From Pseudorhodobacter antarcticus (GTDB taxonomy: Bacteria > Pseudomonadota > Alphaproteobacteria > Rhodobacterales > Rhodobacteraceae): a stretch of 33,233 nucleotides of DNA. How positions within the stretch are numbered: the first letter of the stretch is position 1; each line of letters begins with the position of its first letter. Of this stretch, positions 3,148-33,233 are shown piece by piece. The stretch is from NCBI GenBank assembly GCA_945862465.1, contig CAMAYO010000021.1, positions 1 through 33,233 on the forward strand. The letters are read 5' to 3'. The position numbers were made by a program, and so were the translations under genes. The notes beneath the pieces are model-generated. The model had not been told where the DNA came from, ran no database searches, and worked only from the letters and a program-made list of their open reading frames with translations.

Positions 3148-3186
3148 ACCATCGCACACAATATAAGGTTTGTCTTGTTTACAATA

Positions 3187-3208
3187 TTACAGATTTACAA
3201 ATCTGTAA
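3187..3208. promoter_or_regulatory. Inverted repeat, candidate operator of the divergent regulator
   Basis: Perfect 10-base arms (TTACAGATTT and AAATCTGTAA) flank a 2-base AC centre in the 147-base gap between the PccR-like regulator and sgaA. The core TTTACAAA (3194-3201) recurs as TTTACAAT at 3178-3185, 16 bases away. RamB/PccR-family proteins are known to bind TTTGCAAA-like elements, so this fits an operator for the neighbouring regulator. The spacing differs from the published PccR site, and binding is inferred. Confidence 0.6.
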
Positions 3209-3294
3209 AGTCTCGCATTCACAGCGCAACCTGTTTGCGCTTTGCACAAATTAAAAGCGGTGCAACACCTGCGTCCATCAAAGCGGAGGATGCT

Positions 3295-4491: not shown

Positions 4492-4516
4492 ACACTTAGG
4501 AAGTCAGGATACTACG

Positions 4517-5455: not shown

Positions 5456-5460
5456 TCCAC

Positions 5461-5514
5461 GAATTTTCGGCGAAAATTCAAACAGATCATGCGGGGGCGG
5501 TTCAACGAAACCGC
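5461..5514 (+). repeat. Two consecutive stem-loops between mcl and mtkA
   Basis: Within the 80-base mcl-mtkA gap, 5461-5479 forms a perfect 8-base stem (GAATTTTC / GAAAATTC) with a 3-base loop. Positions 5497-5514 form a 6-base stem (GCGGTT / AACCGC) with a 6-base loop. Neither is followed by a T-run, so they do not look like a rho-independent terminator. They could be mRNA processing or stability elements that set the mcl to mtkAB ratio; function is inferred. Confidence 0.45.
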
Positions 5515-5535
5515 TCTCAGCTTAGGGAGGAACAG

Positions 5536-6708
5536 ATGGATATTCACGAATACCAAGCCAAGGAAATCCTCGCCCGCTTCGGCGTGCCGGTTCCGCGTGG
5601 CGGGTTGGCCTATAGCCCCGAACAAGCGGGCTACCGCGCCCGCGAATTGGGCGGAAATGCTTGGGTTGTCAAAGCGCAGATCCATTCCGGCGGTCGCGGG
5701 GCGGCGGGCGGGGTGAAGCTGTGCAAGACGCCCGAAGAGGTGCAGGCCTTTGCCAGCACGCTGTTTGGCAAGCAGCTTGTGACCAAGCAAACCGATGCCA
5801 ACGGCAAGGGTGTTTACCGCGTTTGGGTCGAAGGCGCTTCGGACATCGCGCAGGAACTGTATCTAGGCTTCGTGCTAGACCGCAAATCCGAACGCATCAT
5901 GATCGTGGCCTCGGCCCACGGCGGGATGGAGATTGAAGATCTGGCCGACAAAGACCCCGACAGCCTGCGCCGCATGATCGTGGACCCTGCCGCCGGTCTG
6001 TCAGAGTTTCAGGCCCGTGAACTGGCCTTTCAACTGGGGCTGCGCGGCGGTCAGGTGGCGCAGATGGTCACAACGCTGCGCGCCTGCTACCGCGCGTACC
6101 GCGATCTGGATGCCGTGATGGTTGAGATTAACCCGCTGGTTGTCACCCATTCCGGCGACCTTGTGGCGCTGGATGCCAAGATGTCTTTTGACACCAACGC
6201 CCTGTTCCGCCAGCCACAAGTCGCCGAACTGCGCGACCGCAGCCAAGAAGACCCGCGCGAAAGCACGGCGGGCGATCATGGGCTGTCTTATGTGGGCTTG
6301 GATGGCGACATCGGCTGCATCATCAACGGCGCTGGTTTGGCGATGGCTACAATGGACATGATCAAGCTTGCGGGCGGAGAGCCTGCAAACTTCCTAGACA
6401 TCGGCGGCGGGGCGAGCCCCGAGCGTGTGGTGCGGGCGTTCCGCACCGTTCTGGCCGATGGCAATGTGTCGGTCATCTTGGTCAACATCTTTGCCGGTAT
6501 CAACCGCTGCGATTGGGTCGCCCAAGGCGTGGTGCAGGCCTATAAAGAAGTGGGCCTGACCATTCCGGTCGTGGTGCGTCTGGCCGGAACCAACGTGGAA
6601 GAGGGCAAGGCCATCATCGACGGATCGGGCTTGCCCCTGATCTCGGCCGATAGCTTGGCTGAAGCCGCTGCTGCCGCCGTCTCTGCCCGCCCCCGCAAAG
6701 CCGCTTAA
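5536..6708 (+). CDS. mtkA: Malate--CoA ligase (malate thiokinase) beta subunit
   Basis: A 390-residue SucC-like ATP-grasp subunit. The start at ATG 5536 follows AGGGAGG at a proper distance and gives the family opening [20 protein letters not shown]. The ATP-grasp domain contains [13 protein letters not shown] (about 44-56) and the metal-binding [10 protein letters not shown]. The C-terminal ligase domain has [13 protein letters not shown] and the [16 protein letters not shown] segment. With the alpha subunit it ligates malate and CoA to malyl-CoA using ATP. It is separated from succinyl-CoA synthetase by context: malyl-CoA lyase lies immediately upstream and no other TCA genes are near. Confidence 0.87.
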
Positions 6709-6718
6709 GGAGGACCAA

Positions 6719-7615
6719 ATGGCCATTCTGATTACGGAAAATACCCGCGTCATCGTTCAAGGCATGTCAGGCCGCATCGGCAGCTTTCACGCCGCCGATA
6801 TGATCAAACACGGCACCAATGTTGTGGGCGGCGTGACCCCCGGCAAGGGTGGTGAAAGCGTTTTGGACCGCCCGCTGTTCAACACGGTGCGCGAGGCGGT
6901 GGAGCAGGTGGGCGCAGAAGCCTCGCTGATCTTCGTGCCCCCGCCCTTTGCAGCCGATGCGATTATGGAGGCCGCTGACGCTGGCATTCGCACCGCTGTC
7001 TGTGTGACAGACGGCATTCCCAGCCAAGACATGATGCGCGTGAAACGCTTCCTGCGCCGCTATCCGGCAGAACGGAAGATGCGCGTCATCGGGCCGAACT
7101 GCGCGGGCATCATCTCACCCGGCAAAGGGTTCATGGGGATCATGCCGCCGCATATCTATATGCCCGGTCGCATTGGCATCGTGGGCCGGTCTGGCACTTT
7201 GGGCTATGAAGCCGCAGCGCAGATGAAGGCTTTGGGGATTGGCGTTTCCACCTCGGTTGGAATTGGCGGCGATCCTATCAACGGGTCTAGCTTCCGCGAC
7301 ATTCTTGAGTTGTTTGAGGCGGATCCGGAAACCGATGCCGTGATGATGATCGGCGAAATCGGTGGCCCGCAAGAGGCCGAAGCCGCAGCCTATGCCCGCG
7401 ATCATATGAAAAAGCCGGTTGTGGCCTATATCGCAGGCCTGTCCGCGCCCAAGGGCCGTAAGATGGGCCATGCGGGGGCGATTGTGTCAGCCTTTGGCGA
7501 AAGCGCTCAGGAGAAGGTGGAAATCCTGAGTGCGGCGGGCATTACTGTGGCGCCCAACCCGTCCTCGATGGGCGAGACGATGGCAATGGTTTTGGCGCAG
7601 CGTAAAGCGGCTTAA
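6719..7615 (+). CDS. mtkB: Malate--CoA ligase (malate thiokinase) alpha subunit
   Basis: A 298-residue SucD-like subunit, 10 bases after mtkA with a strong AAGGAGG Shine-Dalgarno. The N-terminal Rossmann CoA-binding domain starts [21 protein letters not shown]. The middle carries [11 protein letters not shown] (about 125-135). His251 in [16 protein letters not shown] is the residue phosphorylated in this family. It pairs with MtkA to make malyl-CoA for the upstream lyase. It is the last gene of the operon; a hairpin with a T-rich tail starts 21 bases after its stop. Confidence 0.87.
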
Positions 7616-19401: not shown

Positions 19402-19415
19402 AAGCCAATTGGCTT
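19402..19415. repeat. 14-base perfect palindrome at the operon 3' end
   Basis: AAGCCAATTGGCTT is perfectly self-complementary and touches the stop codon of the PanB-like gene. It has no loop or T-run, so it is a poor terminator. It could be a protein-binding or recombination-related site; role unknown. Confidence 0.35.
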
Positions 19416-20209
19416 TAGGAAAGACCCTTACGGAAGGCCACCAACTCGGCCTCTTCCATCTTCACGATGTGTTTGTCTTCTGGATACGCTCCTGAGGCGA
19501 CTTCTGCGATAAACTCGCTATATGCCTCCACCCGATGGCGTTGCAGGCGATCGTATTCGGCGGCGAAATTGCGATACACTTTGGCATGGCGGGGCATGTG
19601 GCCGCGATTTTCACCCAGGATATCTTCCGAGAATAGATACTGCACATCGCATCCTGGGCCAGAGCCCATAGACCAAAGCAGAATATTGACCCTGCGGCTG
19701 ATCTCGGACGCCACTTCGACCGGTACCACCTCGATCTCAACAGCGAAAGCGCCAGCCGCTTCATAGGCGCGGACTTCTTCTAACATGATCAGTGCCGCTT
19801 CAGCCGTCTTACCAACGGCTTTGAACCCCCCAGTAAAGGTATTTCGGGACGGTACCAGCCCGACATGGCCCACCACAGGAATATGCTCGTCAGTCAAGAA
19901 TTTCACTGTGGCAAGGCTGCCAGAGCAATACAGAGCATCCGCCCCTGCATTCAGCATCTTACCGGCAAAGCGCAGATAGTCGTCGCGGGTTCCTGCCGAG
20001 CGGTGGTCAACCCCCGTCATGGAAAACAGCGAGGGCGCCACTTTGCGATACTCAGGGTGGGCGACGAGTTCAGGCGGTACCGAGACGATGTCAATTCCGG
20101 CTTCTTCGGCCGCTGCGGCCTCTTCCAGCGTAAAAAGGCGAAGCATCGTTAGTTGGCCTTTGCCCTTCTTGGCACGTAGATCGATGATGGTGGGTTTTTT
20201 GTTGTTCAT
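19415..20209 (-). CDS. PanB-family (ketopantoate hydroxymethyltransferase-like) protein lacking the metal ligands
   Basis: A 264-residue TIM-barrel protein starting at ATG 20209, one base after the Rieske gene stop. Homology to PanB is clear from GHVGLVPSRNTFTGGFKAVG (114-133), the catalytic-Glu segment EVVPVEVA (Glu160, matching E. coli Glu181) and GSGPGCDVQ. The three PanB Mg2+ ligands are not kept. E. coli GDS (Asp45) aligns with VPP (44-46), ADLPF (Asp84) with the FSMTGVDH region, and KIEGG (Glu114) with LYCSG (93-97). It is therefore unlikely to make ketopantoate. As last gene of a sugar-type catabolic operon it may perform a related aldol or retro-aldol step on a sugar-derived oxoacid. 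That is inference. Confidence 0.82.
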   Translation of the reverse strand: MNNKKPTIIDLRAKKGKGQLTMLRLFTLEEAAAAEEAGIDIVSVPPELVAHPEYRKVAPSLFSMTGVDHRSAGTRDDYLRFAGKMLNAGADALYCSGSLATVKFLTDEHIPVVGHVGLVPSRNTFTGGFKAVGKTAEAALIMLEEVRAYEAAGAFAVEIEVVPVEVASEISRRVNILLWSMGSGPGCDVQYLFSEDILGENRGHMPRHAKVYRNFAAEYDRLQRHRVEAYSEFIAEVASGAYPEDKHIVKMEEAELVAFRKGLS

Positions 20210-20210
20210 C

Positions 20211-20522
20211 TCAGGGCACCTCAATTTCCACGGTGCCATTCAGGACACGCGTGGAATATGTTTTCAAGTTTACGGTGACCGGTGCACGCTGTGCGGCTCC
20301 GGTCTTGTAGTTGAAGCGGCCGTTGTGTTTAGGGCATTCGATGTGGTCGCCCAAGACTAGGCCATCGCATAAGTGAACATTTTCGTGGCTACATAGACCC
20401 GAAGTCGCAAAAAAATTCCCCTTAGGGTCGCGGTAGATGGCATAGGTTGCCCCACCGTAATCAAAGCGCCGCACATCCTCGGGGTCTATATCATCGACGG
20501 CGCAAACGGGTATCCAGTCCAT
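20211..20522 (-). CDS. Rieske [2Fe-2S] ferredoxin, MocE-like
   Basis: A 103-residue soluble Rieske protein. ATG 20522 lies one base after the desaturase stop (TGAGATG); the longer open frame upstream is only overlap with that gene. Cluster ligands are Cys44 and His46 (CSHENVHLCDG) and Cys63 and His66 (CPKHNGRF). Size and pairing with a MocD-like oxygenase match MocE of rhizopine catabolism, the electron donor in oxidative demethylation of 3-O-methyl-scyllo-inosamine. No MocF-like reductase is in the window, so the reductase must come from elsewhere. Confidence 0.88.
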   Translation of the reverse strand: MDWIPVCAVDDIDPEDVRRFDYGGATYAIYRDPKGNFFATSGLCSHENVHLCDGLVLGDHIECPKHNGRFNYKTGAAQRAPVTVNLKTYSTRVLNGTVEIEVP

Positions 20523-20523
20523 C

Positions 20524-21630
20524 TCAGGCCCCCATTCCGCTGCGGTCAGGCACATTTTGGTGTAACTCCTCGCGATAGGGGCGTGCCGTGGCAGGTAGGT
20601 CTTTGCGCAGGTAATAGCCTTTTTCATAGCGCTGGCGCAGAACTGCCGGGATCATTTCGGCATAGGCCGCCCAGATCGATGGACACGCCATGGGCAGGTC
20701 GTCTTTTATAAGTTCATGGAGCTTGGGCAGAGCATGGTAGGGCACCATTGGGAACATGTGGTGCTCGACGTGGTAGTTCATGTTCCAGTAAATCCAGCGG
20801 CTGATCGGGTTCATATAGCAGGTGCGCGAATTGAGCCGGTGATCGACCACATCTTCGGCCAGTCCGCCGTGCTGGATCAGACCTGTCATATACATGTGCC
20901 AACAGCCATAAAGCCTTGGCAGGCCGATCAGCATGAACGGCACAAAGGACTGCAACCAAAGCGCCACGATTAGCGTGGCCGCATAGATCGCCACATGAAC
21001 CCGCGCGGCATAGATTGCCTTGGGAATCTCAGCTGCGGGAATGTAATCACGCTCATCGGCATTCATGTTGCCAATTGCGTTTCGAACGATGACCTTGAGC
21101 GACTGGTACGCATCGAGTGGGCTGACAAAAGATTGGAACTTCATCCAGACATTGGTTGGATGCATGAAGCCTATCTCTGCATCCCGGCCAACGATGATCG
21201 TGTCGGTGTGGTGGCGGGCATGGCTCCACCGCCAGTTGACCGGATTGCGCATCACCATAAAACTAGCGATTTGATAAACGATGTCGTTCATCCAACCTGT
21301 GCGAAAGGCTGTACCATGCCCTGCTTCGTGCCAGCGACTGTCGCAAGCAGAGCCATAAAGCACGCCGTATACGACCCAGAACGGCAGGCAGACCCAAGAT
21401 CCCCAATAGTATACGCCGCCAATGCCCGTCAGCACCAAAAGGCCTAGCCAGATCACGGTATCTCGGATGGCAGGCTGATCGCTACGCGCCATCAAGTCCT
21501 TCATCACTTTGCGCGGGATGTCGGAGTGATACCACTCCGCTGATGCGAGCCCTAGTTCCAAAGCTCTGGCGGCGCTGGGGCCAGTTAGGGAATAATCGCG
21601 TTTTTCTACAAGCGATTGGTCATAAGCCAT
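20524..21630 (-). CDS. Membrane histidine-box oxygenase of the fatty acid desaturase superfamily, MocD-like
   Basis: A 368-residue di-iron membrane enzyme, start ATG 21630 after AAAGGA. Three histidine boxes are intact: HEAGH (101-105), HARHH (137-141) and HVEHH (287-291, in NYHVEHHMFP), with an extra His in LIQHGG. Hydrophobic segments lie at about 58-95 and 208-245. Fusion-like gene spacing with a Rieske ferredoxin and location in a sugar-uptake operon fit MocD, the proposed oxygenase that removes the O-methyl group of a rhizopine, better than a lipid desaturase. The substrate here is inferred to be a methylated sugar or cyclitol. Confidence 0.85.
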   Translation of the reverse strand: MAYDQSLVEKRDYSLTGPSAARALELGLASAEWYHSDIPRKVMKDLMARSDQPAIRDTVIWLGLLVLTGIGGVYYWGSWVCLPFWVVYGVLYGSACDSRWHEAGHGTAFRTGWMNDIVYQIASFMVMRNPVNWRWSHARHHTDTIIVGRDAEIGFMHPTNVWMKFQSFVSPLDAYQSLKVIVRNAIGNMNADERDYIPAAEIPKAIYAARVHVAIYAATLIVALWLQSFVPFMLIGLPRLYGCWHMYMTGLIQHGGLAEDVVDHRLNSRTCYMNPISRWIYWNMNYHVEHHMFPMVPYHALPKLHELIKDDLPMACPSIWAAYAEMIPAVLRQRYEKGYYLRKDLPATARPYREELHQNVPDRSGMGA

Positions 21631-21649
21631 AACTGTTCCTTTGCTTGCC

Positions 21650-22825
21650 TCAGCGTCCTGTCAAAGGCCGGAATAGGCCTGATGGCTGCGGGTAGGCTTC
21701 TTGTGGCGATTGGGCAATTTTTGTGATCCTTGCTTCGGCCTTTGCGATCTCGGCCACGCCATCCAAAATGTGAAAGCGTGTGTCATAAGTGCGGCACTCT
21801 TGGCCTTGCAGCCAGATCATCTCGCCGCGTTCCCGAGCCGCTAGATCGCCCAAAACGTGATGGCTGGAGGGTTCGATGCCAAAGGCATAGGCGCCGGCCT
21901 GAAAGTGCTGCCATTCGTATAGACATGGCAGTTGGTCCTTTCGGGTCGTTACCTCGATCCCCAATGCAAGGCGATCATTAATCAAGGCGACGGGTACCTC
22001 ACCCGCACTGTTGCAACCTGCTTCATGTTGCCAGACCTGTTCGGCGAATTGATCCATTGGTGCGGGCGCGCGCGCATAACCTACGCCCTGCGCCGTGTAG
22101 CGGTCGCTATGGGCCGACCAAACCACGTCTGTGATTGGTGCAACGAAGCGTGCGCCTTCGGCCAGCAAGGGAGCACCAATGTTGATATGGTAAAAAAACA
22201 TATGGGGCGTTGGCAAAAAGCCTGTGTTTTTCACCCGGTCACTAAGCCGGATCTCGTTGCTGCCAAGATCAACTTCGATCTTGCGAAACAGGGTCAATTG
22301 TTCGCCGAAGGTCGTCGCCTGACGCACCTCTCCCTCGGCCCATAGGATGCAACGACCTTCCTGCCAACGCTCTCCATATCCTACAAGCTTGCCCGGGATC
22401 GTCGAGATACGCCCATGCAACCCATGCCGGTTTGTGATCATGTTTGGGTAGTTGTAATTGCCGGCGGGCACCTCTTCAGGGCCAAGAATATGGTCTAGAC
22501 CGCAGGTGACCAGAAAGCCGCTGAAGCTGCGCCCCCATGAAAAGCCATCTTCGCTGTCATATTCGTGAAGGCTTGGATGACGGACGCCAGAAGGGCCGTG
22601 CCAACCGATCGATTGGCCTTTGAACTCTAGCTCGCAGATGTCAAAGGCTCTGTCGATCAGCACGGTGAAGCGCAGGCCGGTGCCAGTGCGAAACTCCAGC
22701 ATACGGACACCGCGCTCCAGACCGTCGGACAATTCCATTAACCGCACCCCGCCAAACGCGCTAAGGCTGCCGGAGCGGCGCGCAAGTTCGAGGGGGGAAA
22801 GGTCTTCTCCGAACAGTCTGGGCAT
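21650..22825 (-). CDS. DUF4432 family aldose 1-epimerase-like protein
   Basis: A 391-residue beta-sandwich protein of the galactose-mutarotase superfamily, DUF4432 type. Typical stretches are FTVLIDRAFDICELEFKGQ near the N-terminus, GLDHILGPEE, NRHGLHGRISTIPGK, and the HMFFYHINIGAPLL segment with candidate catalytic histidines. Start ATG 22825 has AATAGGTG upstream. Family members sit in sugar operons and are thought to interconvert anomers or epimers, but reactions are mostly unproven. It lies between the isomerase-like protein and the MocD-like oxygenase. Confidence 0.8.
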   Translation of the reverse strand: MPRLFGEDLSPLELARRSGSLSAFGGVRLMELSDGLERGVRMLEFRTGTGLRFTVLIDRAFDICELEFKGQSIGWHGPSGVRHPSLHEYDSEDGFSWGRSFSGFLVTCGLDHILGPEEVPAGNYNYPNMITNRHGLHGRISTIPGKLVGYGERWQEGRCILWAEGEVRQATTFGEQLTLFRKIEVDLGSNEIRLSDRVKNTGFLPTPHMFFYHINIGAPLLAEGARFVAPITDVVWSAHSDRYTAQGVGYARAPAPMDQFAEQVWQHEAGCNSAGEVPVALINDRLALGIEVTTRKDQLPCLYEWQHFQAGAYAFGIEPSSHHVLGDLAARERGEMIWLQGQECRTYDTRFHILDGVAEIAKAEARITKIAQSPQEAYPQPSGLFRPLTGR

Positions 22826-22868
22826 ATATCACCTATTCTGGGGGCGGCGCGGGCGCCGCCCATTTTAG

Positions 22869-23780
22869 TCACACGCCGTTGGCTACAAATTTGCCGTCCA
22901 AGAAAGCCTTGGAGCGCGGCACATCCGCTTCATCCAGATGTTCTATGATCATCGGAATGTTTGGGCATTTCTCTGCCAGGCGTTGCAGATAGAGGTCATA
23001 GTTCAAGACGCCCATCCCTGGCGCATCCAGTGCGATTGCTCCAACGCCACGGAAGGTGTGGCTCGCCAAGGCATCGTCATCACCGATGTCGGCATGTTTT
23101 TCCGAAGTGTCCTTGGCGCGTGCCACGTCTTTGGCATGGGCGATTTTGACTTTGTCAGCCAGCGTGTCGAAGACTTGGTTCAACACCTTGTCCATGCTGT
23201 CGATGTTGTGGTCCTCGAAGTAATTGGTCGGATCCATTAACAGTCCAAGGCCTGGGTGATCAACTTGGGCGAACATCCGGACCGTTTCCTCAACGGACCC
23301 CACCACGTTGTTGACATAAGTCTCCAGCAGGAATTGTGCCCCGTGGTCATAGGCCACCTGCGCCAGTTCAGAGATCACTTTGCGGCAGGTCTCGAACCCC
23401 TCCTCGGTCTTGTTCTTGGGGTCCGACATCCACTCGGACTCGGTATTGTAGGTGCCGGTTTCTGAGATCACATAGGGCGTGCCAAAGCTGCGAGCGTTGC
23501 GAAGTAGCTCTTTGAGGCGGTCAACATTGGCTTTGCGATGAGCAAGGTCGGGGTGGATGATGTTGGTATAACCCGACAGGCAGCAAATCGGTAGGTTATG
23601 GGCGCGGAACGTGTCGCGCACCTTCTTAGCCTTGCCTGCGGTGATCTGGCCCGCGCTTAGGTCGATGTCCTTGAAATGTAGGTCCAACTGCACGGTGTTA
23701 AAGCCGTGGCTGCGGATGCGTTTGGCGGTTTCCTCTAATCCGTAGGGGAAATAGCCTGTAAAGATTCCCGATTGCATCAT
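22869..23780 (-). CDS. Xylose-isomerase-like TIM barrel sugar isomerase/epimerase
   Basis: A 303-residue AP-endonuclease-2-family TIM barrel. GGGAGG precedes the start, where two ATGs are adjacent. Likely metal ligands are Glu153 (LLETYVN), Asp183 (LMDPTNYFE), a His in the KIAHAKD region (His215) and Glu280 (IIEHLDE), the arrangement of IolE, MocC and ketose 3-epimerases. It would isomerise, epimerise or dehydrate a keto-sugar or keto-inositol produced by the adjoining dehydrogenase. It follows that gene by 15 bases. Confidence 0.83.
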   Translation of the reverse strand: MMQSGIFTGYFPYGLEETAKRIRSHGFNTVQLDLHFKDIDLSAGQITAGKAKKVRDTFRAHNLPICCLSGYTNIIHPDLAHRKANVDRLKELLRNARSFGTPYVISETGTYNTESEWMSDPKNKTEEGFETCRKVISELAQVAYDHGAQFLLETYVNNVVGSVEETVRMFAQVDHPGLGLLMDPTNYFEDHNIDSMDKVLNQVFDTLADKVKIAHAKDVARAKDTSEKHADIGDDDALASHTFRGVGAIALDAPGMGVLNYDLYLQRLAEKCPNIPMIIEHLDEADVPRSKAFLDGKFVANGV

Positions 23781-23795
23781 GGTAGGTTTCCTCCC

Positions 23796-24887
23796 TCAGT
23801 TCGTTGAAATTTCAGACAGTTTCACGGTACGCCCTTCGGTCATTGACCGATAACCGGCTTCGATCAAAGCCACGGTTTGAACATTGTCAGCCACCGACAG
23901 CGCCGGAGGCGTGCCGGTTTTGACGGCATATTGCAGTTGTTCCATCACGCCCACAAAGGCATGGGGGAACCACATGGTTTCCCAGGTTGGCGTCACCCAT
24001 TTGCCCTTGGTGGTCTTTTGCGAGGCGTAGGTCAGCGTGCTCGCGGCCCCCGTGGGCCAGCCAATCGTGCCCTTTGCAACGCCCAGCGTGCCCTCTACCC
24101 GAAAGGTGATGTGCTGGTCGTTCTCATAACCCTCGGCCCTTGGACCCGACCAAACATCCTCAAGACTGACCGCCAGAACGCCCGACGCAAAGCGCAGGGT
24201 GGACACCGTGATCCCGTCGGTATGCTCAAAGGTCGTGCGTGGGTCTGTGCGGGTCTGGGTGGTGATTTCCACCGGTTGGCCAAACAAAAAGCGCAACACA
24301 TCCAAATGGTGCACCGACATATTGGCCAGTGTCAGGCGGTCATAGCCCGCAAGGAAGCCTTGCCAATGCGGGATAGCGTGCATGTCAATCTGGGCAAAGA
24401 CGATCTCACCAAGATCGCCACCATCAAGAATTTCCTTCAAGACCCTCATCGACTGGTCATAACGCATATTCTGATTAACGCTAAGAACCTTGCCTGCTTT
24501 CGCGGCGGCATCCCGCAGCGCAATTGCATCGGCCAGTGTTAACGCCAAAGGCTTCTGCGCAAGGATTGCCTTGATATGGGGCTGTTTGAGCGCCGCAAGG
24601 ATCAAAGCGGGCTGCTGATCAGGCGGATAAGCTATGTCCAGCACTTCAATCGAAGGGTCGACAATCAGTGCTTCGGGCGTGTTGTGTACCTTGGGAATAC
24701 CCCATCGCGTCGCCACCGCCTCTGCTTTGGCCTTGGTGCGACTGGCGATGGCTGCCACTGTGAAACCTGCCTCTTTGTAGGCTGCCAGATGGCATTCGGC
24801 CATGATCATGCCGGCCCCGATGCAGCCTATCTTCAAATCCCTGACCCGCACCTGCGGATCGGGATGAAATCCCAAAGCGTTGGTCAT
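23796..24887 (-). CDS. Gfo/Idh/MocA family NAD(P)-dependent oxidoreductase
   Basis: A 363-residue dehydrogenase. The Rossmann motif is GCIGAGMIMAECH (21-33). The usual EKP motif is QKP, with catalytic Lys112 kept (AILAQKPLAL). The second-domain segment NMSVHHLDVLRFLFG carries the His pair that helps acid-base catalysis. It overlaps the upstream ABC ATPase gene by 4 bases (ATGA), which ties transport to metabolism in one transcript. The family oxidises sugars, inositols and their derivatives; substrate unknown. Confidence 0.87.
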   Translation of the reverse strand: MTNALGFHPDPQVRVRDLKIGCIGAGMIMAECHLAAYKEAGFTVAAIASRTKAKAEAVATRWGIPKVHNTPEALIVDPSIEVLDIAYPPDQQPALILAALKQPHIKAILAQKPLALTLADAIALRDAAAKAGKVLSVNQNMRYDQSMRVLKEILDGGDLGEIVFAQIDMHAIPHWQGFLAGYDRLTLANMSVHHLDVLRFLFGQPVEITTQTRTDPRTTFEHTDGITVSTLRFASGVLAVSLEDVWSGPRAEGYENDQHITFRVEGTLGVAKGTIGWPTGAASTLTYASQKTTKGKWVTPTWETMWFPHAFVGVMEQLQYAVKTGTPPALSVADNVQTVALIEAGYRSMTEGRTVKLSEISTN

Positions 24888-25954
24888 TGTGCCACTCCTC
24901 TCATGCGGGGTAGCGTGGTGCCGCTGGCCCCAAAATAGATTACCTTGGCGGGGTCGCAGGACAAAGTGACCTGAACGCCCACTCGTAAATCGGGTTGTCC
25001 GCGCACCATTGCGTGAAGTGACACATCGCCTGCGGTCAAAGTCACGACGGTATAGCCGCCCAATGGCTCTACTTCGGCCACGGTCGCGGGCGAACCTTTG
25101 CCCGCAAAGGGCTGCACGCGCAGATCCTCTGGCCGGAGGCCCAACTCGGTGGCACCCGCCACTGTTTGTGATTGAATGCGTAACGCGCCCGAGGCCGCCT
25201 CGTACCCTTCCCCCACCCGCTGCACGGGCAGGATGTTCATGGTCGGAGAGCCTAGAAAACGGGCGACATAGGTCGTGGCGGGGTTGTCGTAAATCTCGAC
25301 CGGGGTACCGACTTGCCGGATCACTCCATGTTCCAAAATAGCCATCCGGTCGGCGACAGACATCGCCTCTTCTTGGTCATGGGTCACATATATCAAGGTG
25401 CGCCCAGCCTCACGCTGTATGCGCTTGAGCTCCACCCGCGTTTCCTCGCGCAAGCGTGCGTCTAAAGCCGAGATCGGATCATCCATCAGATACGCAGCCG
25501 GATCGCGAACCAAGGCTCTGGCAATTGCGACACGCTGGCGTTCCCCGCCCGACAACTGGCCAGGCATCTTGTGCAGGATATGGACGATATGCAGCTTTTC
25601 GGCGGCATCTTTAAGGCGGGCTTCGATAATGGCCGAAGCCTCGTTCCGCTCTATGAGGGGAAAGCGGATGTTGTCAGCGGCGCTCATATGCGGAAAGAGC
25701 GCAAGGTTTTGAAACACCATCGCGATGTTGCGCTGCGCCGGCGATACAGCGTTGACCACCTTGCCATCGATCAAAATCTCGCCCACGTCGGGTTTTTCAA
25801 GACCAAGGATCAGCCGCAAGATCGTGCTTTTTCCTGATAGGGGCGGGCCGAAGAAGCAGAAGAATTCATTGTCGGCGACTGTGAAGCTCGCGTTGTCCAC
25901 CGCCACCGTGTCGCCGTAGCGCTTGGTTACATTGTAAAAGGCTATTTCTGCCAT
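24884..25954 (-). CDS. Sugar ABC transporter ATPase 1 (MalK/UgpC type, catalytic Glu replaced by Asp)
   Basis: A 356-residue CUT1-type ATPase with the C-terminal TOBE-like regulatory region (after about 235). Walker A is GPPLSGKST (36-44), Q-loop Gln82, signature LSGGE (134-138), H-loop His192. Walker B reads YLMDDP: the catalytic Glu is Asp159. The partner ATPase has the opposite defect, so the two should form a heterodimer with one competent site. It starts 2 bases after the partner gene ends. Confidence 0.88.
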   Translation of the reverse strand: MAEIAFYNVTKRYGDTVAVDNASFTVADNEFFCFFGPPLSGKSTILRLILGLEKPDVGEILIDGKVVNAVSPAQRNIAMVFQNLALFPHMSAADNIRFPLIERNEASAIIEARLKDAAEKLHIVHILHKMPGQLSGGERQRVAIARALVRDPAAYLMDDPISALDARLREETRVELKRIQREAGRTLIYVTHDQEEAMSVADRMAILEHGVIRQVGTPVEIYDNPATTYVARFLGSPTMNILPVQRVGEGYEAASGALRIQSQTVAGATELGLRPEDLRVQPFAGKGSPATVAEVEPLGGYTVVTLTAGDVSLHAMVRGQPDLRVGVQVTLSCDPAKVIYFGASGTTLPRMRGVAQ

Positions 25955-25955
25955 A

Positions 25956-27047
25956 TCATGCCCCCTTCAATGCGATGCCAGAGGCGGCTTCGAACAGCCG
26001 CACCGCATGTGCCAAGGGGGCGAAGTGCAATATTTGGCCCGTCTGCAAACCCGCGTCATTCTCGAGCACAACTTTGGCAGAGGCCGAGCCTTGCCCAAGA
26101 TGCAGGATCGTCCGCGCTCCGATTCGCTCGACAAAGGTTATAGGCATCGCCATGCCCTGACCTTCTGGCACAAGCGCCACAAGCTCGGGTCGGAAGCCAT
26201 AAACAACATCCGCCTTAGCTTGCCGCAGCGCGGCCACTTGCGGTGCCGACAGGGGCGGTGTCTGCCCGAGGGGGCCAAGGTCCAGCGCCAATCCTGTGGC
26301 AGTCTCGACAGGTTGGCCCTGCAATAGGTTCATCCCCGGCGAGCCGATGAAACGGGCGACAAACAAATTGTCGGGGTCGTTGTAAATTTCCAGAGGCGTG
26401 CCCACTTGTTGCAGCACGCCGTGGTCCATCACGGCGATGCGGTCCGCCATGGTCATAGCTTCTAGCTGATCGTGGGTGACATAGACCATGGTCTGGCGGA
26501 ACTGGCGCTGCAGCGCTTTCAGTTCGGTGCGCATAACCGTCCGAAAAGCCGCATCGACGTTGGAAAGGGGTTCATCAAGCAGGAAGATCGACGGCTCCAT
26601 CACTGCAGACCGACCGATCGCCACCCGTTGAAGAATGTTCACAGACAGTCCCGCAGAAGGCCGGTCAAGCATAGTGGTCAGTTGCAACAGATCAGCCATG
26701 GCGCTGACGCGGCGGTTGACTTCGTCGACCGGGCGTCGGGTGGCACGTAGGCCATAGGCGAGGTTCTGGCCCACCGTCAAATGGGTAAAAATCGCGTAAT
26801 TCTGAAAGACAAACCCCACGCCCCGTCGCCCCATCGGCACACCGGCCATGTCGCGGCCATCGAACAAGATCCGACCTTCAGACGGCCGCTCCATCCCTGC
26901 AATCATGTTCATCGTGGTGGATTTGCCACAGCCAGACGGACCCAAAAGCGCAACAAATTCGCCGTCGGCAATCGTCAGATCCATAGTCTTCAAAGCCGTA
27001 AATGGGCCGAAGCGTTTGACAAGCTGTTGAAGGTGTATCGTGCTCAT
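25956..27047 (-). CDS. Sugar ABC transporter ATPase 2 (MalK/UgpC type, degenerate signature motif)
   Basis: A 363-residue CUT1-type ATPase. Walker A GPSGCGKST (36-44), Q-loop Gln82, Walker B with catalytic Glu159 (FLLDEP) and His192 are intact. The LSGGQ signature is LSVNI (134-138), losing both glycines that contact ATP across the dimer. The rest of the C-loop helix (QRVAIGRS) is conserved, so this is not a sequencing frameshift. Together with ATPase 1 it gives one canonical and one degenerate composite site. Start ATG 27047 overlaps the permease stop by 4 bases. Confidence 0.88.
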   Translation of the reverse strand: MSTIHLQQLVKRFGPFTALKTMDLTIADGEFVALLGPSGCGKSTTMNMIAGMERPSEGRILFDGRDMAGVPMGRRGVGFVFQNYAIFTHLTVGQNLAYGLRATRRPVDEVNRRVSAMADLLQLTTMLDRPSAGLSVNILQRVAIGRSAVMEPSIFLLDEPLSNVDAAFRTVMRTELKALQRQFRQTMVYVTHDQLEAMTMADRIAVMDHGVLQQVGTPLEIYNDPDNLFVARFIGSPGMNLLQGQPVETATGLALDLGPLGQTPPLSAPQVAALRQAKADVVYGFRPELVALVPEGQGMAMPITFVERIGARTILHLGQGSASAKVVLENDAGLQTGQILHFAPLAHAVRLFEAASGIALKGA

Positions 27048-27925
27048 GTGCGGGCCATCCGTTTAAGGGCCCACACACAGGCGATGGACAGAACGATGAG
27101 GATCGCCAGCGCAATCGCCGCGACATAGCCCCAAATTAGATCCTGTGTGGCGATCTTGTAGATATAGACGCTGATCGTTTCCGTGGCGACGCCTGGCCCG
27201 CCGCCGGTCATGATAAAAAGCGTGTCGAAGATTTTGAAGCATTCGATAACGCGGATCGCCAAAGCGATGCCGATGATGGTTTTCATTCGCGGCAGGACGA
27301 TGGTTACAAATCGTTGGACTGGGCCCGCGCCCAGTAGTGTGGCGGCCCTGATCTGATCCTCTGGCACACCGGCAAGACCAGCCAACAGAATCAGGAACAT
27401 AAGTGGCGTCCACTGCCAGATATCCGCCACCATCACCGCCAAAAGGGCCAAGTTGGGATCTGATAGCCAAGCAACTGTAATCGGGTGGCCGATCAGGTTG
27501 GACAAGATGTCATTGATCGGTCCGCCAGACTGGAACAGCATGAAGAACATGTAACCCGCAACCGCCGGAACGACCATCATGGGCATAATCAGGATGGAAT
27601 AGGCCGCGCGCTTGCCCGGGAAATCATCCATGAACAGGGTGGCAAGACCAAGGCCGAGCAGGAACTCAACCGGCACGCAAACACCGATAACCAAGGCAGT
27701 GCGGCCCAAAGCCGACCACAGGCGGTGGTCATAGATCAGGTCGATGTAGTTCGCGAATGTATTCCACATCGCCCAGGCTTGGGTCCAAGATGTGCCTGCC
27801 AACGGCGACCAATCGGTCAGCGATATGTAAAGCTGCATCAACAGGGGAAAGACCGAGATGAAAAGGACTAAGACCTGCGCGGGTAAGGTCAAGCGAAAGC
27901 CCAGTTTTGCGCCATCGTCCTTCAT
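27044..27925 (-). CDS. Sugar ABC transporter permease, MalF/UgpA type
   Basis: A 293-residue inner-membrane permease with about six hydrophobic segments. ATG 27925 overlaps the preceding permease stop by 4 bases; the longer open frame upstream is antiparallel overlap. The EAA-like coupling loop is [26 protein letters not shown] (from about 190), which docks on an ATPase. [20 protein letters not shown] near the C-terminus is characteristic of MalF/UgpA-type subunits. Confidence 0.88.
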
Positions 27926-28782
27926 TGTTTCAGCGCTCCAAAGGTAAGCCCACGCACCAGATGCTTCTGAATTAGAACGCCCAGCACCACCGGCGGCACT
28001 GCGGCAATAAGGCCCAAGGCCGCCTTGGCCCCATAAAGCTGCCCTGTCATTGAGGACGACAGTGAGGCCATGTAAACGGGGATCGTTACCCATTCCCGCG
28101 TCGTCAGCAAAAGGGCAATCAAGTAATCTGACCAGTTTAAGATGAAGACGAACAGCGCAGCAGAGGCCAAGGGTGCGCGCATCATGGGCAGGGTGATGCG
28201 CCAGAAAACGCGTGCGCGGGAGCAACCCTCAACCAAGGCCGCTTCTTCGATCTCTTTCGGCATATCATCAAAGAAGGTCTTCATCAGCCAGAAGGCGAAG
28301 GGCAGTGTTACGATGCCGTAGACCAGAGCCAAGCCCCACCACGTGTCAGTGAAGTTTAAAAAGGCCCACATTATCATCACTGGCGTCATCACCGCCATCG
28401 GCGGGAAGAGCCTTAACTGCACCAATGCCAAGGGCAAGTTTGACCCCGACCCAAAGCGCGACAAGCCGTAAGCCGCCGAAGTGCCCGCTGTCATAGCAAT
28501 CACCGTACCTAGGCCCGCTGCAAGGAAAGAGGCGAGGATAGGCTTGACGGCTGTCCTATCCAAAGTGGCTATAAGCTCATTCGAGTTGGTTCCGAAGATG
28601 TAGCGAAAGTTATCCAGCGTTGGGGCTTTTGGGATCCACGTAAGAGCGGCGCCCGTCGCCTGCCATTCTGGGATGGGCTTGAATGCCATTGACGCCATCC
28701 AAAGGATTGGCACAAGAGCCACCGCGATAGCAGTCACTAGTATCAGATATCGTAGGACCTCAAAGGCCAGCGCACGGGTCAT
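27922..28782 (-). CDS. Sugar ABC transporter permease, MalG/UgpE type
   Basis: A 286-residue inner-membrane permease. ATG 28782 ([13 protein letters not shown]) is chosen over a GTG 45 bases upstream because it begins directly before the first membrane helix. The EAA loop is [23 protein letters not shown]. The segment [25 protein letters not shown] is typical of MalG/UgpE subunits. It pairs with the next permease to form the channel for the solute-binding protein encoded first in the operon. Confidence 0.88.
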
Positions 28783-28874
28783 GGTAATTCCAAGTTTGGT
28801 AAGATTGGCCGACGCGGTTTTTCGCACCGGCCAAGGAAATGGCCCAAGCCTTGAATAGCTCGGCGTCGAGGTGG

Positions 28875-30485
28875 TTAGGTCGGATCAAGCACTGTGGGCC
28901 AGGCTGCCTTGTTGGCCTTGATGGCATCGATGATCTTGTCCTCACCCGTCCGACGGGTGATCTTGGCCCACTCGTCGGCAGTATCGGCCATGGCCTGCGC
29001 CGCAGTCTTGGCACCTGTAAGTGACGCCATCAGGTTCTCATCCAGCGCGTTGTGGAAGGCCGTGGCGCCCGGATAGTTGATGGTCGGAACGGTGCGGGCG
29101 ACGGTCTCGCGGACGTTGTCCATGTGGTAGGCGTGGTAAGTCTCTCGCACCAGCGGATCGGCAAAGTCGTTGAGCGAGAAGGGGTCGAAATAGCCACCCG
29201 GGTTCGCTGTCATCCAGCTGTAAATCCGAGCCGATCCCAGCCACTGAAGCAGTAGATAGGCCGCCTCTGGATACTGTGACTGCGCCGACACCATGCCGGT
29301 CAAGCTGAACCACAACACCGAACGGCTGACGATCTTGCCATCAATCTCGCGCCCTGGCGGAAGCATTGAGCCAATTTTTCCCGTCACCGTTGACCCAGTG
29401 TTGCCAGGGTTATCCAAGAACTTGGGAAGGTTAGAGAAAGCGCAAGTCATTGCAGCACCGCCGCTCGCGAAGTTGCCGTATTGCTCGGGCCAACCCCAGC
29501 TAATCGCGTCGGGCGAGTGATGAGCAAGACTGTCTATGTATTCTTGCGTCGCCGCGACCCCCTGTTCTGAGTTGATCAGTGGCACGCCGTCATCCCCAAA
29601 AAGAAATTGATTAGGCGATGCCATCGACGTGTAGCGTTGGTACCAATTGGTGTAGCCCCAACCCTGATTGCGCAGATCTGTAGAGCCGAAGAGGCCTTTA
29701 TCCGGGCGTTGGAAGAAGGCTGCAACGTCGGAATGCTGCTTCCAAGTTTTCGGCGGAGCCAGGTCGTAACCGTACTTGTCCTTGAAGGCCTGCTGCTCTG
29801 CCGCGTCGCCAAACAGATCTGTGCGGTAGACCCATGTCTGGAAGTCACCGTCTAGCGATACGCCGTAGGTGCTGCCCCGATACTGGTTCAACAGGGCCAC
29901 ACCTTGGGCCCCGTTCACGTAACCCATTGTAGGGTCATCCCATTGTGGTTTGTGCTCGGCCACAAAGTCATCCAACTTTGCAATCCCACCACTTTCCGCC
30001 AGATCGCCTAAGCGGTTCCACTCAGTCGAATAAATGTCATAGGCCCCACCTTTGGTGGAGATATCCTGCATCGTCTTGGTGAATTCCTGACCGTTGGGCA
30101 GGCCTACGATCTCAATCTGGATGCCCGTTTCTTTTTCCCAAAGGTCCTTAATCGAGGGTGCGCCTTCGGGGAAAGGTTTGGTCAACTGGCCTATGGAGCC
30201 GTCTGACAAACCCACCACAATCTTGGCTGGAGCCTTGCCGGCTCCCTTCAGGGCTTTGGCCGCCTCAATCGCGCGACCTTCAGGCGTATCGGGGCCATAT
30301 TGATAACGTTCCGCCCCAGCAAACCCCGTTGGCCCGCCGATCATGCCCGGCGCCAAAGCGTCTGAGGACCCGGCGCGTGCCGGGCGGATGAAACGCGGGG
30401 CAATTCCGATGGCCGCGCCGTAGACAGCCAACTTTCCGCCGGTCGTCAACAACTGGCGCCGTGAGATGTGGTTCTTTTGGTCCAT
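28875..30485 (-). CDS. Extracellular solute-binding protein of the sugar ABC transporter, Tat signal
   Basis: A 536-residue periplasmic binding protein, long for family 1 (usually 400-450). ATG 30485 follows GGGAGGGAAG. The N-terminus has a twin-arginine signal ([10 protein letters not shown], Arg9-Arg10) with a likely cleavage after ARA, so it is exported folded. Mature features include [10 protein letters not shown], the [21 protein letters not shown] segment and the [20 protein letters not shown] region. It captures the substrate for the two permeases and is first in the operon. Its length and the paired ATPases resemble GlpV/GlpST-type systems more than maltose systems, but the ligand is unknown. 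Confidence 0.87.
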
Positions 30486-30537
30486 TGCTTCCCTCCCAAG
30501 ATAGCAGAGCGCATCGTTGTCGCCCTCAGAATGAGGA

Positions 30538-30565
30538 GTTATGAAGAAATAAGACATCAAGTCAA
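30538..30565 (-). promoter_or_regulatory. Candidate sigma70-type promoter of the ABC/moc-like operon
   Basis: On the minus strand TTGACT (30565-30560) and CATAAC (30543-30538) are spaced 16 bases, about 52 bases before the binding-protein start. The match to TTGACA/TATAAT is moderate. It is the best promoter in the 309-base divergent region. Confidence 0.45.
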
Positions 30566-30577
30566 CATCAGAAAATA

Positions 30578-30636
30578 TCATTTTTGAATGAGTCTGTGCC
30601 AGATGCTGATGTGTTTAACTCAAATTTGTGGTTAAA
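30578..30636. promoter_or_regulatory. Two dyads, candidate LacI operators
   Basis: TCATT-TTTG-AATGA (30578-30591) and TTTAAC...GTTAAA (30614-30619 / 30631-30636, 11-base spacer containing CAAATTTG) lie between the promoter and the divergent LacI gene. LacI proteins usually bind such dyads next to or over promoters. Which one is used is unknown. The octamer CAGATGCT also occurs twice (30600, 30645). Confidence 0.4.
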
Positions 30637-30794
30637 ACAGACTTCAGATGCTAAAGTTTCATTCAAACTTCGTCATCTATCCTAAGGGTTGCATCAAAAT
30701 ACATCATTTACAGCCCGTCGATTCGATGGCAGAAAAGAAATGCCTGTGTGGGCGGCCAAATCGCCCTATCTCTTACACATTGAAGAAAGCAAAG

Positions 30795-31817
30795 ATGCCC
30801 CCGAACCGTGTGACCTTGCAGGATGTGGCCAAAGCGGCGGGCGTATCGCCCGCAACGGTGGACCGCGTTCTGAACGGGCGCGGCGGCGTACGTGGACGGA
30901 CGCGGGAAGTGGTATTAGAAACCGCCCAAAGTCTTGGTTACATTGCAGGGCCCAAAGACGCTGAGCCGCAGGAGCGGACCCTTTTAGTGTTTCTTTTGCC
31001 CGCTGGCACCAACACTTTTATTGATTCCTTGCACCATCATATCGAGACGAATGCATCCAGCCGCCCCCACCTTCTGGTGCGTATTGAAAGGGTCGAAGGG
31101 TTCAACCCGCAAACGCTGGCCTCCCGACTTTTGGATCTCAAGGGCAAGGCACAAGGCGTCGGTCTGATCGCGCAGGATCATCCCCTCGTGCGCGAAGCCA
31201 TCCGCACTTTGTCAGCCGCCGGAACGCCTGTGGTGACGCTTGCCTCAGACATTCAAAGCGTGCCGCGCGTGGCCTATGTGGGCATAGACAACCGTCAAGC
31301 CGGTCGACTGGCAGGCCAATTGATGGGACGCTTCTTGCCTGCAGGCCAACCCGCGAAGGCGGCACTTTTCGCGGGCTCTCTTTCCTATCGCGGTCACGAA
31401 GAGCGCGAGATGGGCTTTCGCCACATTTTGCGCGATGAATTCCCCCACATCCAGATCCTTGAACTGCGCGAGATCATGGATGACCGCATCCGGGCCCAGC
31501 AAGAAACACTGGCGCTGTTGGATCAGCACCCCGATCTGGGTGCCATTTATAACGTCGGGGGTGGCACCTCAGGGATTGGTACAGCGCTGAAGGGGCGTGC
31601 TGCCGCCCACCGCGTTGTTCTGATTGGCCACGAAGCCACCGAAAGCAACAAGCGTCTACTTTTGGACGGTACAGTCGATGCGGTGATCGACCAAAACCCG
31701 CGTGTCGAAGCGCGGGAAGCCCTCAATATCTTGATTGCGGCCATCCGCGGCAAGGCCTATAATTTTATACCGCCGCGCTTGCAACTGGTGCTGAAGGAAA
31801 ACTTGCCTGATGAGTAG
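30795..31817 (+). CDS. LacI family transcriptional regulator of the sugar operon
   Basis: A 340-residue repressor. I take ATG 30795 because VTLQDVAKAAGVSPATVDRVLNGRGGV, the LacI helix-turn-helix and hinge, starts at once; earlier ATGs in frame (e.g. 30726) add non-family residues, and the ribosome site is weak. The periplasmic-binding-protein-like ligand domain follows from about residue 55 to the end (AYVGIDNRQAGRLAGQLM, IGHEATESNKRLLLDG). It is divergent to the ABC/moc-like operon and most likely represses it until the imported sugar or a metabolite binds. Confidence 0.88.
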   Translation: MPPNRVTLQDVAKAAGVSPATVDRVLNGRGGVRGRTREVVLETAQSLGYIAGPKDAEPQERTLLVFLLPAGTNTFIDSLHHHIETNASSRPHLLVRIERVEGFNPQTLASRLLDLKGKAQGVGLIAQDHPLVREAIRTLSAAGTPVVTLASDIQSVPRVAYVGIDNRQAGRLAGQLMGRFLPAGQPAKAALFAGSLSYRGHEEREMGFRHILRDEFPHIQILELREIMDDRIRAQQETLALLDQHPDLGAIYNVGGGTSGIGTALKGRAAAHRVVLIGHEATESNKRLLLDGTVDAVIDQNPRVEAREALNILIAAIRGKAYNFIPPRLQLVLKENLPDE

Positions 31818-31940: not shown

Positions 31941-33233
31941 TCACACCAAACAGAACGGCCTTGGCAATTTACGGTGGTTGTGCGCCCCCGCAACCAACAA
32001 TATCGCAGTTTCTGACACAAGCTCCCCCTGGGGAGCTTTTTGCGTTTGGGCGGTTTGGTGGATGATGGGGCCAAGGGCGCCGGTGATGGTGAGGGCGCAG
32101 CCTTGGGGTTGGGATTGCAGGGTGATCTCGGTGATGAGGGTGCGCAGGATGGTCATGGCGTCGTAGATGGCCTCGGGATGGGTCAGTTGGGCACGCAGGT
32201 CTTGGACCATGGCTTGGTAGTGCTGGCCGAGGTCTGGTGGCAGGGTGATTGTGGCCTGCTCTGGTGCTGCGGCTTGGGCTGTTAGCTGTGACAGGGTGTC
32301 TTCGAGGGAGGCCAGGCGTGTGGTGAGAGCCGCAGAGGCGCGGCCGGATGCTATGGCATCAACGATGTTTGTGATGGCGGTTTGGGTGGAGGCGATGCGG
32401 GCACCAAGCGCGCCGGTATCTGCGGCTTGGGCCTTGGTGAGGGTTGCTGTCTCTTCCACGCAGGCTGTGATGAAGGTTTGGGTCAGTTCTGGTGTGAGCA
32501 GGTCTGCCTGCAGGGATGAGAGGATGGCCTCTTCCAACTCTGGCTGGGCGATGCGCGCACGGTTCTCGCAGGTGCCTTTGTTTTTGCTTGCAGCACAGCC
32601 GTAGTAATGCCCGCTGACCATGGTGACACCACCCCCACATCCGCCGCATTTGATCAGGCCTGAGAAGAGGTGCTTGGGGCGGCGGTTGGCCACATCCACA
32701 CGCGGTCGGTCTGGCCTTGTGGCACGTGTGCGCTTGGCTTGGGCTTTTTGGGCGGCCTCCCAAGTGGCAGGGTCAAGGATGGCGAGGTCTTGGACCTCTT
32801 GGGTGATCCAAATCTCTGGCGGATTGGGGCGGGCCTGGCGCTTTCCGGTCGTGGGGTCTTTGATGAACCGCTGGCGGTTCCAGATCAGGCGGCCAAGGTA
32901 AAGCTCGTTGTTCAAGATGCCGGTGCCGCGCTTGCGATTGCCGATGAGGGTGGAGGCGGTCCAGCCCTGATGGCGGGGACCTGGCACTTTGTCGCGGTTT
33001 AGGCGGTGTGCAATGGCGCGGGGCGATTGGCCAGAGAGGTAAGCGGCATAGATCTGGCGGATCACGTCGGCTTGGGCAGGGTTGATGACACGGCGGCCAC
33101 GGTCGATAGGACCCTCGGGGCCAAACTCGCGGATCACGTCATAGCCGTAGGCATTGCCGCCGCCACTGCGGCCTTGCAGGATGCGGCCCTCAAGTCCGCG
33201 CTTGGTCTTTTGCGCCAGATCTTTGAGGTAAAG
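31941..33233 (-). CDS. Large serine recombinase, C-terminal part (5' end beyond the window)
   Basis: 430 codons are open to the right edge, so the gene continues; the Resolvase domain with the catalytic Ser is outside. Visible are the linker LKDLAQKTKRGLEGR with GRSGGGNAYGYDV, the Recombinase domain (PAQADVIRQIYAAYLSGQSPRAIAHRLNRD, IWNRQRF), and the zinc ribbon LIKCGGCGGGVTMV...YYGCAASKNKGTC. A coiled-coil region rich in Ala and Thr follows. Such enzymes integrate or excise phages and islands, or sit in conjugative elements. The last 20 residues or so follow a hairpin-T-run terminator and may be read-through rather than original sequence. Confidence 0.88.
   Translation of the reverse strand, partial: LYLKDLAQKTKRGLEGRILQGRSGGGNAYGYDVIREFGPEGPIDRGRRVINPAQADVIRQIYAAYLSGQSPRAIAHRLNRDKVPGPRHQGWTASTLIGNRKRGTGILNNELYLGRLIWNRQRFIKDPTTGKRQARPNPPEIWITQEVQDLAILDPATWEAAQKAQAKRTRATRPDRPRVDVANRRPKHLFSGLIKCGGCGGGVTMVSGHYYGCAASKNKGTCENRARIAQPELEEAILSSLQADLLTPELTQTFITACVEETATLTKAQAADTGALGARIASTQTAITNIVDAIASGRASAALTTRLASLEDTLSQLTAQAAAPEQATITLPPDLGQHYQAMVQDLRAQLTHPEAIYDAMTILRTLITEITLQSQPQGCALTITGALGPIIHQTAQTQKAPQGELVSETAILLVAGAHNHRKLPRPFCLV
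32019..32041 (+). terminator. Rho-independent terminator inside the recombinase 3' end
   Basis: AAGCTCCCC / GGGGAGCTT pair perfectly over 9 bases with a 2-base loop (32028-32029), and the plus strand continues TTTTT. It would stop plus-strand transcription coming from the LacI gene, about 200 bases after that gene. It overlaps recombinase codons on the other strand, which is unusual. Confidence 0.55.

Follow-up and report, generated by a model that had tools for sequence, protein, structure and literature searches.

What is a relative of PanB, the ketopantoate hydroxymethyltransferase of vitamin B5 synthesis, doing in an operon for sugar uptake? The question is raised by a stretch of 33,233 nucleotides from Pseudorhodobacter antarcticus (contig CAMAYO010000021.1, the whole of which is called the window below), which is contig C21 of a genome of 2.92 Mb in 155 contigs, 92% complete. 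In the window, the gene for a PanB-like protein ends a run of eleven genes that also encodes a MocE-family Rieske ferredoxin, a MocD-like membrane di-iron oxygenase, a sugar-type ATP-binding cassette (ABC) importer and putative sugar enzymes (Table 1). A preliminary description of this DNA had proposed that the operon takes up an O-methylated sugar or cyclitol and demethylates it oxidatively, and had presented the gene set as one that matched no familiar pathway. The content of that set stands; its singularity does not, as the trio of MocD, MocE and PanB-like protein recurs in different operons. This trio is a recurring cassette, peculiar neither to the window's operon nor to a single sugar pathway. 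To the whole explanation developed here, in which import of a methylated sugar or cyclitol is combined with this cassette for O-demethylation and with handling of the released one-carbon (C1) unit by the PanB-like protein, we give an even chance.

To quantify the linkage, we ran the co-occurrence search that the preliminary description had suggested, on 61 genomes: the window's own and 60 relatives from its genus, family and class. A MocD was counted as strong at 43% identity or more, pieces at contig ends included, and MocD rows weaker than about 1e-10 were excluded; canonical PanB denotes 36 weaker PanB-family matches, eight of them aligned and placed on the tree, with six still weaker or partial rows omitted. 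Of 43 PanB-like genes, 33 have a strong MocD no more than 3 kb away, and of 44 strong MocD genes, 31 have a PanB-like gene within that distance. The corresponding counts are 0/36 for canonical PanB near MocD and 0/17 for weak desaturases near a PanB-like gene. Two of the 33 (G002:C204:2070-2810 and G003:C36:12203-13003) are, by their position next to it or in its operon, partners of FA_hydroxylase (PF04116), another membrane di-iron oxygenase, and FA_hydroxylase also accompanies six of the ten PanB-like genes that are not near MocD, including G029:C40, where a MocD lies 5.5 kb off as well. As for the other four, the contig of G006:C21 starts inside the operon, G029:C60 has its MocD 6.7 kb off, G015:C2 is a 91-residue remnant, and G029:C20 is a broken PanB-like gene after MocE, with no oxygenase match in 13 kb.

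The same association is found over a wider range. We compared the 80 loci most similar to the window's PanB-like protein out of at least 574, a sample biased toward the query's own clade because it takes the top of the ranking; most of its gene lists come from a simple GC-bias gene picker and are rough. The closest named carriers among these 80 are Pseudorhodobacter, Cypionkella, Rhodobacter and Tabrizicola. Within 3.5 kb of the PanB-like gene, MocD is present in 71/80 loci, MocE in 64/80 and MocF in 14/80. Nine loci have no MocD in this range: L099 and L120 have one at 5.5 and 6.9 kb, and the genomes of the other seven carry MocD elsewhere in every case (7/7), four of them Actinomycetota with 48-51% identity to the window's MocD. 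In the L123 genome this MocD is found at the end of a contig and could belong to the same cassette, split in two. A phylum sample drawn around one Actinomycetota carrier contains three genomes with MocD out of 149, the carrier among them; the other two are G253, with a PanB-like gene, and G307, where the PanB found is of the canonical clade. In the Actinomycetota loci L125, L126 and L129, whose genomes carry MocD at another place, the PanB-like gene stands right after an AMP-binding acyl-CoA ligase (by Pfam for L126, by eye for the others).

Of 142 genomes sampled across the class, the window's own included, nine have a PanB-like gene (E up to 1e-36) and six a MocD (E up to 1e-60). Without the window's genome, three of 141 have both, from eight and five (hypergeometric p 0.0012, uncorrected for kinship). 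G064, in which MocD, MocE, MocF and PanB-like genes stand in a row, is missing from the six because its MocD is only 31% identical. G066 has MocD next to the PanB-like gene, G153 is of the FA_hydroxylase type, and G106 and G120 carry MocD on another contig; in G111, G156 and G161 no match to MocD or FA_hydroxylase was found in 10-13 kb around the PanB-like gene.

The recurrence is equally clear within the window's own genome, which has three MocD-like genes, three MocE genes over the cut-off and, in addition to a canonical PanB, four PanB-like genes. The four PanB-like genes sit in four different operons, on C21 (the window), C25, C44 and C42. On C25 the neighbours are an SDR, an MR_MLE dehydratase, an SMP-30 protein and a BPD_transp_2 importer, with no MocE beside the cassette; on C44 they are a LacI, a TIM barrel, a Peripla_BP_4 importer and a Gfo; and on C42 a MocE, a TIM barrel and another Gfo. 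The Gfo proteins of C44 and C42 pass the inositol 2-dehydrogenase equivalog (IolG, cut-off 355 bits) with 432.6 and 432.3 bits, and that of the window falls below it with 96. Uptake of an O-methylated sugar or cyclitol followed by oxidative demethylation, as first proposed for the window, is still the best reading and gains from these similar cassettes in IolG-equivalog or SDR/MR_MLE/SMP-30 operons. FA_desaturase genes on C12 and C85 were considered as further cassettes and set aside, no window protein having matched around them. The 91-residue remnant mentioned above (L193, 9335-9607) has neighbours that by eye resemble those of the C25 cassette, and it looks like a lost cassette.

The C42 operon and its homologues have no MocD; FA_hydroxylase stands in its place. 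This oxygenase is over the Pfam cut-off in five proteins (of L038, L155, L161, L191 and L194) and was found by tblastn in L156, L157, L159 and L046. In a tree of 122 rows (rows with stops or fewer than 230 residues dropped, loci below L036 omitted), PanB-like proteins and canonical PanB are split with support 100/99, and the FA_hydroxylase-linked rows fall in two separate places; the deep joins are unsure, because some long branches meet. Two tree labels, those of L172 and of the first PanB-like protein of L160, were assigned manually as FA_hydroxylase; L158, L141 and rows at contig ends count as 'none'. L173, L174 and L175 form a PanB-like subclade of their own, in which the N-terminus is similar and no MocD or FA_hydroxylase match lies nearby. 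Neighbouring genes at two loci hint at deoxyhexoses as substrates: at L155, FA_hydroxylase and the PanB-like protein have as neighbour a protein that combines rhaM and Amidohydro_2 domains, and L121 has a below-cut-off match to L-fucono-1,5-lactonase (88.8 of 400) ahead of MocE and the PanB-like gene. A plasmid of Paenibacillus cellulosilyticus (L139) carries MocD, MocE and MocF-like genes with rhaM, Amidohydro_2, aldose epimerase, SDR-like and MR_MLE-like genes, and would be a deoxyhexose-type demethylation cluster in Bacillota.

Is the PanB-like protein, then, a PanB? It falls below both PanB cut-offs (TIGR00222, 104.6 versus 207.55; PRK00311, 124.1 versus 272). We compared 109 PanB-like with eight canonical rows, dropping rows with stops or fewer than 235 residues, a limit set at 240 in one further row set, and used residue numbers and roles in which we take Asp45, Asp84 and Glu114 to be the PanB metal ligands. 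At the Asp45 position, the PanB-like rows have Pro (74), Ser (12), Asp (10) or Ala (9), and the canonical rows Asp (8/8); at Asp84 they have Gly in 104/109 (canonical Asp, 7/8), and at Glu114 Ser or Ala in 105/109 (canonical Glu, 7/8), a single canonical row deviating at each of these two positions. Lys112 is replaced by Tyr in 106/109, and the equivalents of His136 and Glu181 are retained in 109/109 and 108/109. A structure model built from 34 sequences (predicted local distance difference test score 83.3, predicted template modelling score 0.82; residues 1-12, 131-137 and 211-222 poorly predicted) gave the PanB structures 3vav and 1m3u as best Foldseek matches (TMq 0.71-0.72 for the first three rows, root-mean-square deviation 6.1-6.6), followed by class II aldolases and methylisocitrate lyase. 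Model and alignment indicate a PanB fold without the PanB metal ligands.

These results bear on two alternatives. Plasmid annotations make the protein a further ketopantoate hydroxymethyltransferase, serving vitamin B5 synthesis, and the fold would agree; with both profile scores under the cut-offs, the metal ligands lost and another PanB, within the canonical clade, on C87, this is highly improbable, and the vitamin B5 label that public genomes give the family is apparently wrong. Alternatively, it could be no enzyme at all and help membrane di-iron oxygenases with assembly, stability or docking, which would suit both the lost metal site and the company of two oxygenase families. The nearly invariant His136 and Glu181 equivalents argue against such a role, as does the absence of the PanB-like gene from some MocD clusters, and we consider it rather improbable. 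A few copies deserve separate mention: L007 (G009:C12:37884-38690) is an orthologue of 89% identity with one in-frame TGA, from gene decay or assembly error; L140 (S. meliloti RCAM1750) has the gene in two pieces without an annotated gene, possibly a broken one; and short PanB-like pieces at 17.1-17.3 kb of L136, far downstream of the cassette, may be broken or partial copies.

The oxygenase and its electron supply were analyzed in the same way. The window's Rieske protein passes the curated MocE model (Table 1), and the three di-iron His boxes are present in 96/96 distinct long MocD matches among the loci compared. The preliminary description had named a lipid desaturase not co-transcribed with the transporter as one finding that would overturn its proposal. 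The Pfam name FA_desaturase suggests such an enzyme, unrelated to the sugar genes; we find this scarcely credible, since the lipid-desaturase equivalogs score far below cut-off (DesB 34.3/500, DesA 20.8/500), the partner MocE is over its own, and the gene lies 19 bases from the DUF4432 gene in an order conserved across genera. No match to the MocF reductase was found among the proteins of the window's operon, as first described. Some rhizobial cassettes have a flavin adenine dinucleotide (FAD) reductase (Pyr_redox_2 and Reductase_C) between MocE and the PanB-like gene, and others, such as that of Rhizobium sp. Kim5, have none there. The single Reductase_C protein of the window's genome, on C83 and away from the cassettes, is 41% identical to the L078 reductase and may stand in for the missing MocF as a shared reductase.

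A different reaction can also be envisaged: the oxygenase would act on an unmethylated sugar derivative, hydroxylating or desaturating one of its C-H bonds, and the PanB-like protein would then convert the product in a reaction of aldolase or lyase type. The Pfam family of MocD includes C-H hydroxylases such as GntB, whose model matches the MocD-like protein weakly, and the aldolases and lyase that follow PanB in the Foldseek search point the same way. The cassette, however, occurs with unrelated sugar gene sets and, on rhizobial plasmids, with few or no sugar genes, and surroundings so varied suggest a reaction common to many substrates; in addition, Bahar et al. in 1998 reportedly found MocDE to be needed for the O-methylated rhizopine. 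We regard C-H oxidation as unlikely.

What reaction would suit all these contexts? Capture of formaldehyde or of a hydroxymethyl group would be their simplest common denominator. The rhizobial plasmids are instructive here: pSymB of an S. meliloti strain other than 1021 has a LacI-MocD-MocE-FAD reductase-PanB-like cluster with no sugar gene or importer beside it, and pRL11 of R. leguminosarum has the same series with one TIM-barrel gene beyond LacI and no importer beside it. Because these cassettes have few or no sugar genes, the PanB-like protein appears tied to the oxygenase and not to one sugar. We therefore favor O-demethylation with C1 capture, which in the window would proceed as follows. 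The importer would take up an O-methylated sugar or cyclitol; NAD(P)H would supply electrons, by way of a shared FAD reductase (the candidate on C83) and the Rieske protein MocE, to the membrane di-iron MocD, which would hydroxylate the O-CH3 group; and the resulting hydroxymethyl ether would yield a free hydroxyl and a C1 unit at the level of formaldehyde. The PanB-like protein, a paralogue without the metal site of the methylene-tetrahydrofolate-dependent PanB, would take up this unit, most likely onto tetrahydrofolate, and Gfo, TIM barrel and DUF4432 protein would degrade the demethylated sugar. That the substrate is methylated and oxidatively demethylated is quite probable on the gene content; that the PanB-like protein handles the C1 unit has a little less than an even chance; and tetrahydrofolate as its acceptor is a tentative proposal. 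The most specific version, in which the family would be a new kind of hydroxymethyltransferase that needs no metal and transfers the carbon of the O-hydroxymethyl ether, or nascent formaldehyde, directly to tetrahydrofolate, is doubtful. If true, demethylation by two di-iron oxygenase families would feed the C1 pool with little free formaldehyde.

The C1 genes of the genome are compatible with a folate-linked sink. Formate-tetrahydrofolate ligase is present, and Fae has no match in the 92% complete genome (glutathione-linked formaldehyde oxidation was not searched for). On the plus strand of the window, 12 kb from the operon, a class-V aminotransferase, an HpcH/HpaI lyase and both subunits of a CoA ligase stand in a row (2782-7615), a block that reads like part of the serine cycle as we take its gene set to be. 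The best model for the aminotransferase is BhcA, under its cut-off (569 of 650 bits); for the beta subunit it is malate-CoA ligase (694 bits, cut-off 604), with succinate-CoA ligase also passed; and for the alpha subunit it is succinate-CoA ligase.

Several observations weigh against O-demethylation with C1 capture. FA_desaturase members such as the weakly matching GntB also hydroxylate C-H bonds without demethylation. In the 61 genomes, 13/44 strong MocD genes have no PanB-like gene within 3 kb, some being cut by contig ends and two having it at 5.5 and 6.7 kb; G307 has MocD without a PanB-like gene, and G092 and G145 have MocD with no PanB-like gene at the threshold used. Conversely, three alphaproteobacteria with a separate PanB-like subclade show no MocD or FA_hydroxylase in 10-13 kb and no MocD at E 1e-60. 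The L139 plasmid record, which was searched without the chromosome, has no PanB match. Finally, according to PMC10033563, a companion gene beside the P450 for 6-O-methyl-galactose does not detoxify formaldehyde.

In the window itself, open reading frames and profile searches confirm the predicted operon much as first described: eleven open minus-strand genes in the named order, each matched to its family, with small gaps (47 bases at most), 4-base overlaps at the Gfo/ATPase and ATPase/permease junctions, and a divergent LacI beside the binding-protein end (Table 1). The gene order is kept wholly or partly in Cypionkella, Pseudorhodobacter, Rhodobacter and Mesorhizobium loci and, being conserved across genera, is not a chance arrangement; Cypionkella psychrotolerans PAMC 27389 (L059) has the same operon. 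The longest reading frames of MocE, permease 1 and the PanB-like protein run into upstream genes, and for these, the binding protein and LacI internal starts are likelier. A crude search for palindromes of 14-20 bases with one mismatch found no operator shared by the LacI-operon intergene and ten homologous loci. Three solved proteins are weakly related to the window's binding protein, and two of these bear the names of sugar and sorbitol ABC binding proteins; the solved relatives of binding protein, TIM barrel and Gfo gave no specific answer as to substrate, and the literature on apiose yielded nothing decisive. A serine recombinase gene (Recombinase, Zn_ribbon_recom; 31941-33233, minus strand), open at the contig end, adjoins the LacI gene.

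Table 1. Predicted genes of the window's operon and its divergent regulator.
Feature	Coordinates	Strand	Supporting matches	Likely start
PanB-like protein, cassette member	19415..20239	-	Pantoate_transf 136.7 bits	~20209
MocE-family Rieske ferredoxin	20211..20627	-	TIGR02377 143.4 bits (cut-off 136.15); CSH, CPKH motifs	~20522
MocD-like membrane di-iron oxygenase	20524..21630	-	FA_desaturase PF00487 124.3 bits; HEAGH, HARHH, HVEHH boxes	
DUF4432 protein, aldose-epimerase-like	21650..22825	-	PF14486 310 bits; solved relative 3ty1 (hypothetical aldose 1-epimerase)	
Xylose-isomerase-like TIM barrel (AP_endonuc_2); putative sugar isomerase, epimerase or lyase	22869..23780	-	PF01261	
Gfo/Idh/MocA dehydrogenase	23796..24887	-	PF01408, PF02894; best solved relative 5uhw	
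ABC ATPase 2 with TOBE	24884..25954	-	PF00005, PF08402	
ABC ATPase 1	25956..27047	-	PF00005	
ABC permease 1 (BPD_transp_1)	27044..28225	-	PF00528	~27925
ABC permease 2 (BPD_transp_1)	27922..28827	-	PF00528	
Sugar-type binding protein	28875..30581	-	PF01547 SBP_bac_1	~30485
Divergent LacI-family regulator	30648..31817	+	PF00356, Peripla_BP_4	~30795

If confirmed, these results would supply a marker gene by which bacterial users of methylated sugars can be recognized, indicate where the methyl carbon of these sugars probably goes, and correct the annotation of a family of PanB paralogues labelled as a vitamin B5 enzyme in rhizobial records. A literature search that covered few subscription papers found none joining mocD with panB, and none joining the enzyme name of PanB with demethylation, formaldehyde and oxygenase.

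It is instructive to compare the window's cassette with known systems. PanB uses methylene-tetrahydrofolate (PMC4814558); the PanB-like protein shares its fold and the His136 and Glu181 equivalents, and differs in gene context and in the replacement of metal ligands and Lys112 in nearly all members. Rhizopine catabolism in Sinorhizobium meliloti L5-30 includes mocDEF (of mocRABCDEF; PMC10107442). With that system, whose genes were not compared by sequence, the window shares a MocD-like di-iron oxygenase and a MocE-family Rieske protein, and some rhizobial homologues of its cassette also share a MocF-like reductase; the window's operon adds the PanB-like protein, other sugar genes and a transporter, and is without MocF. 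On pSymB of S. meliloti 1021, SM_b20817-SM_b20820 are LacI, mocD, mocE and mocF (PMC11387232). LacI, MocD and MocE are common to both loci, with a reductase in the same cluster on pSymB. The pSymB record of another strain has the PanB-like gene next and no adjacent sugar importer or enzyme; from that gene order, SM_b20821 would be the PanB-like gene. In marine Flavobacteriia, a P450 with a conserved companion gene oxidatively demethylates 6-O-methyl-galactose (PMC10033563). Oxidative removal of a sugar O-methyl group with a conserved companion gene is common to both systems, demonstrated there and proposed here, with a P450 and an alcohol dehydrogenase in the one case and a di-iron oxygenase and a PanB-like protein in the other.

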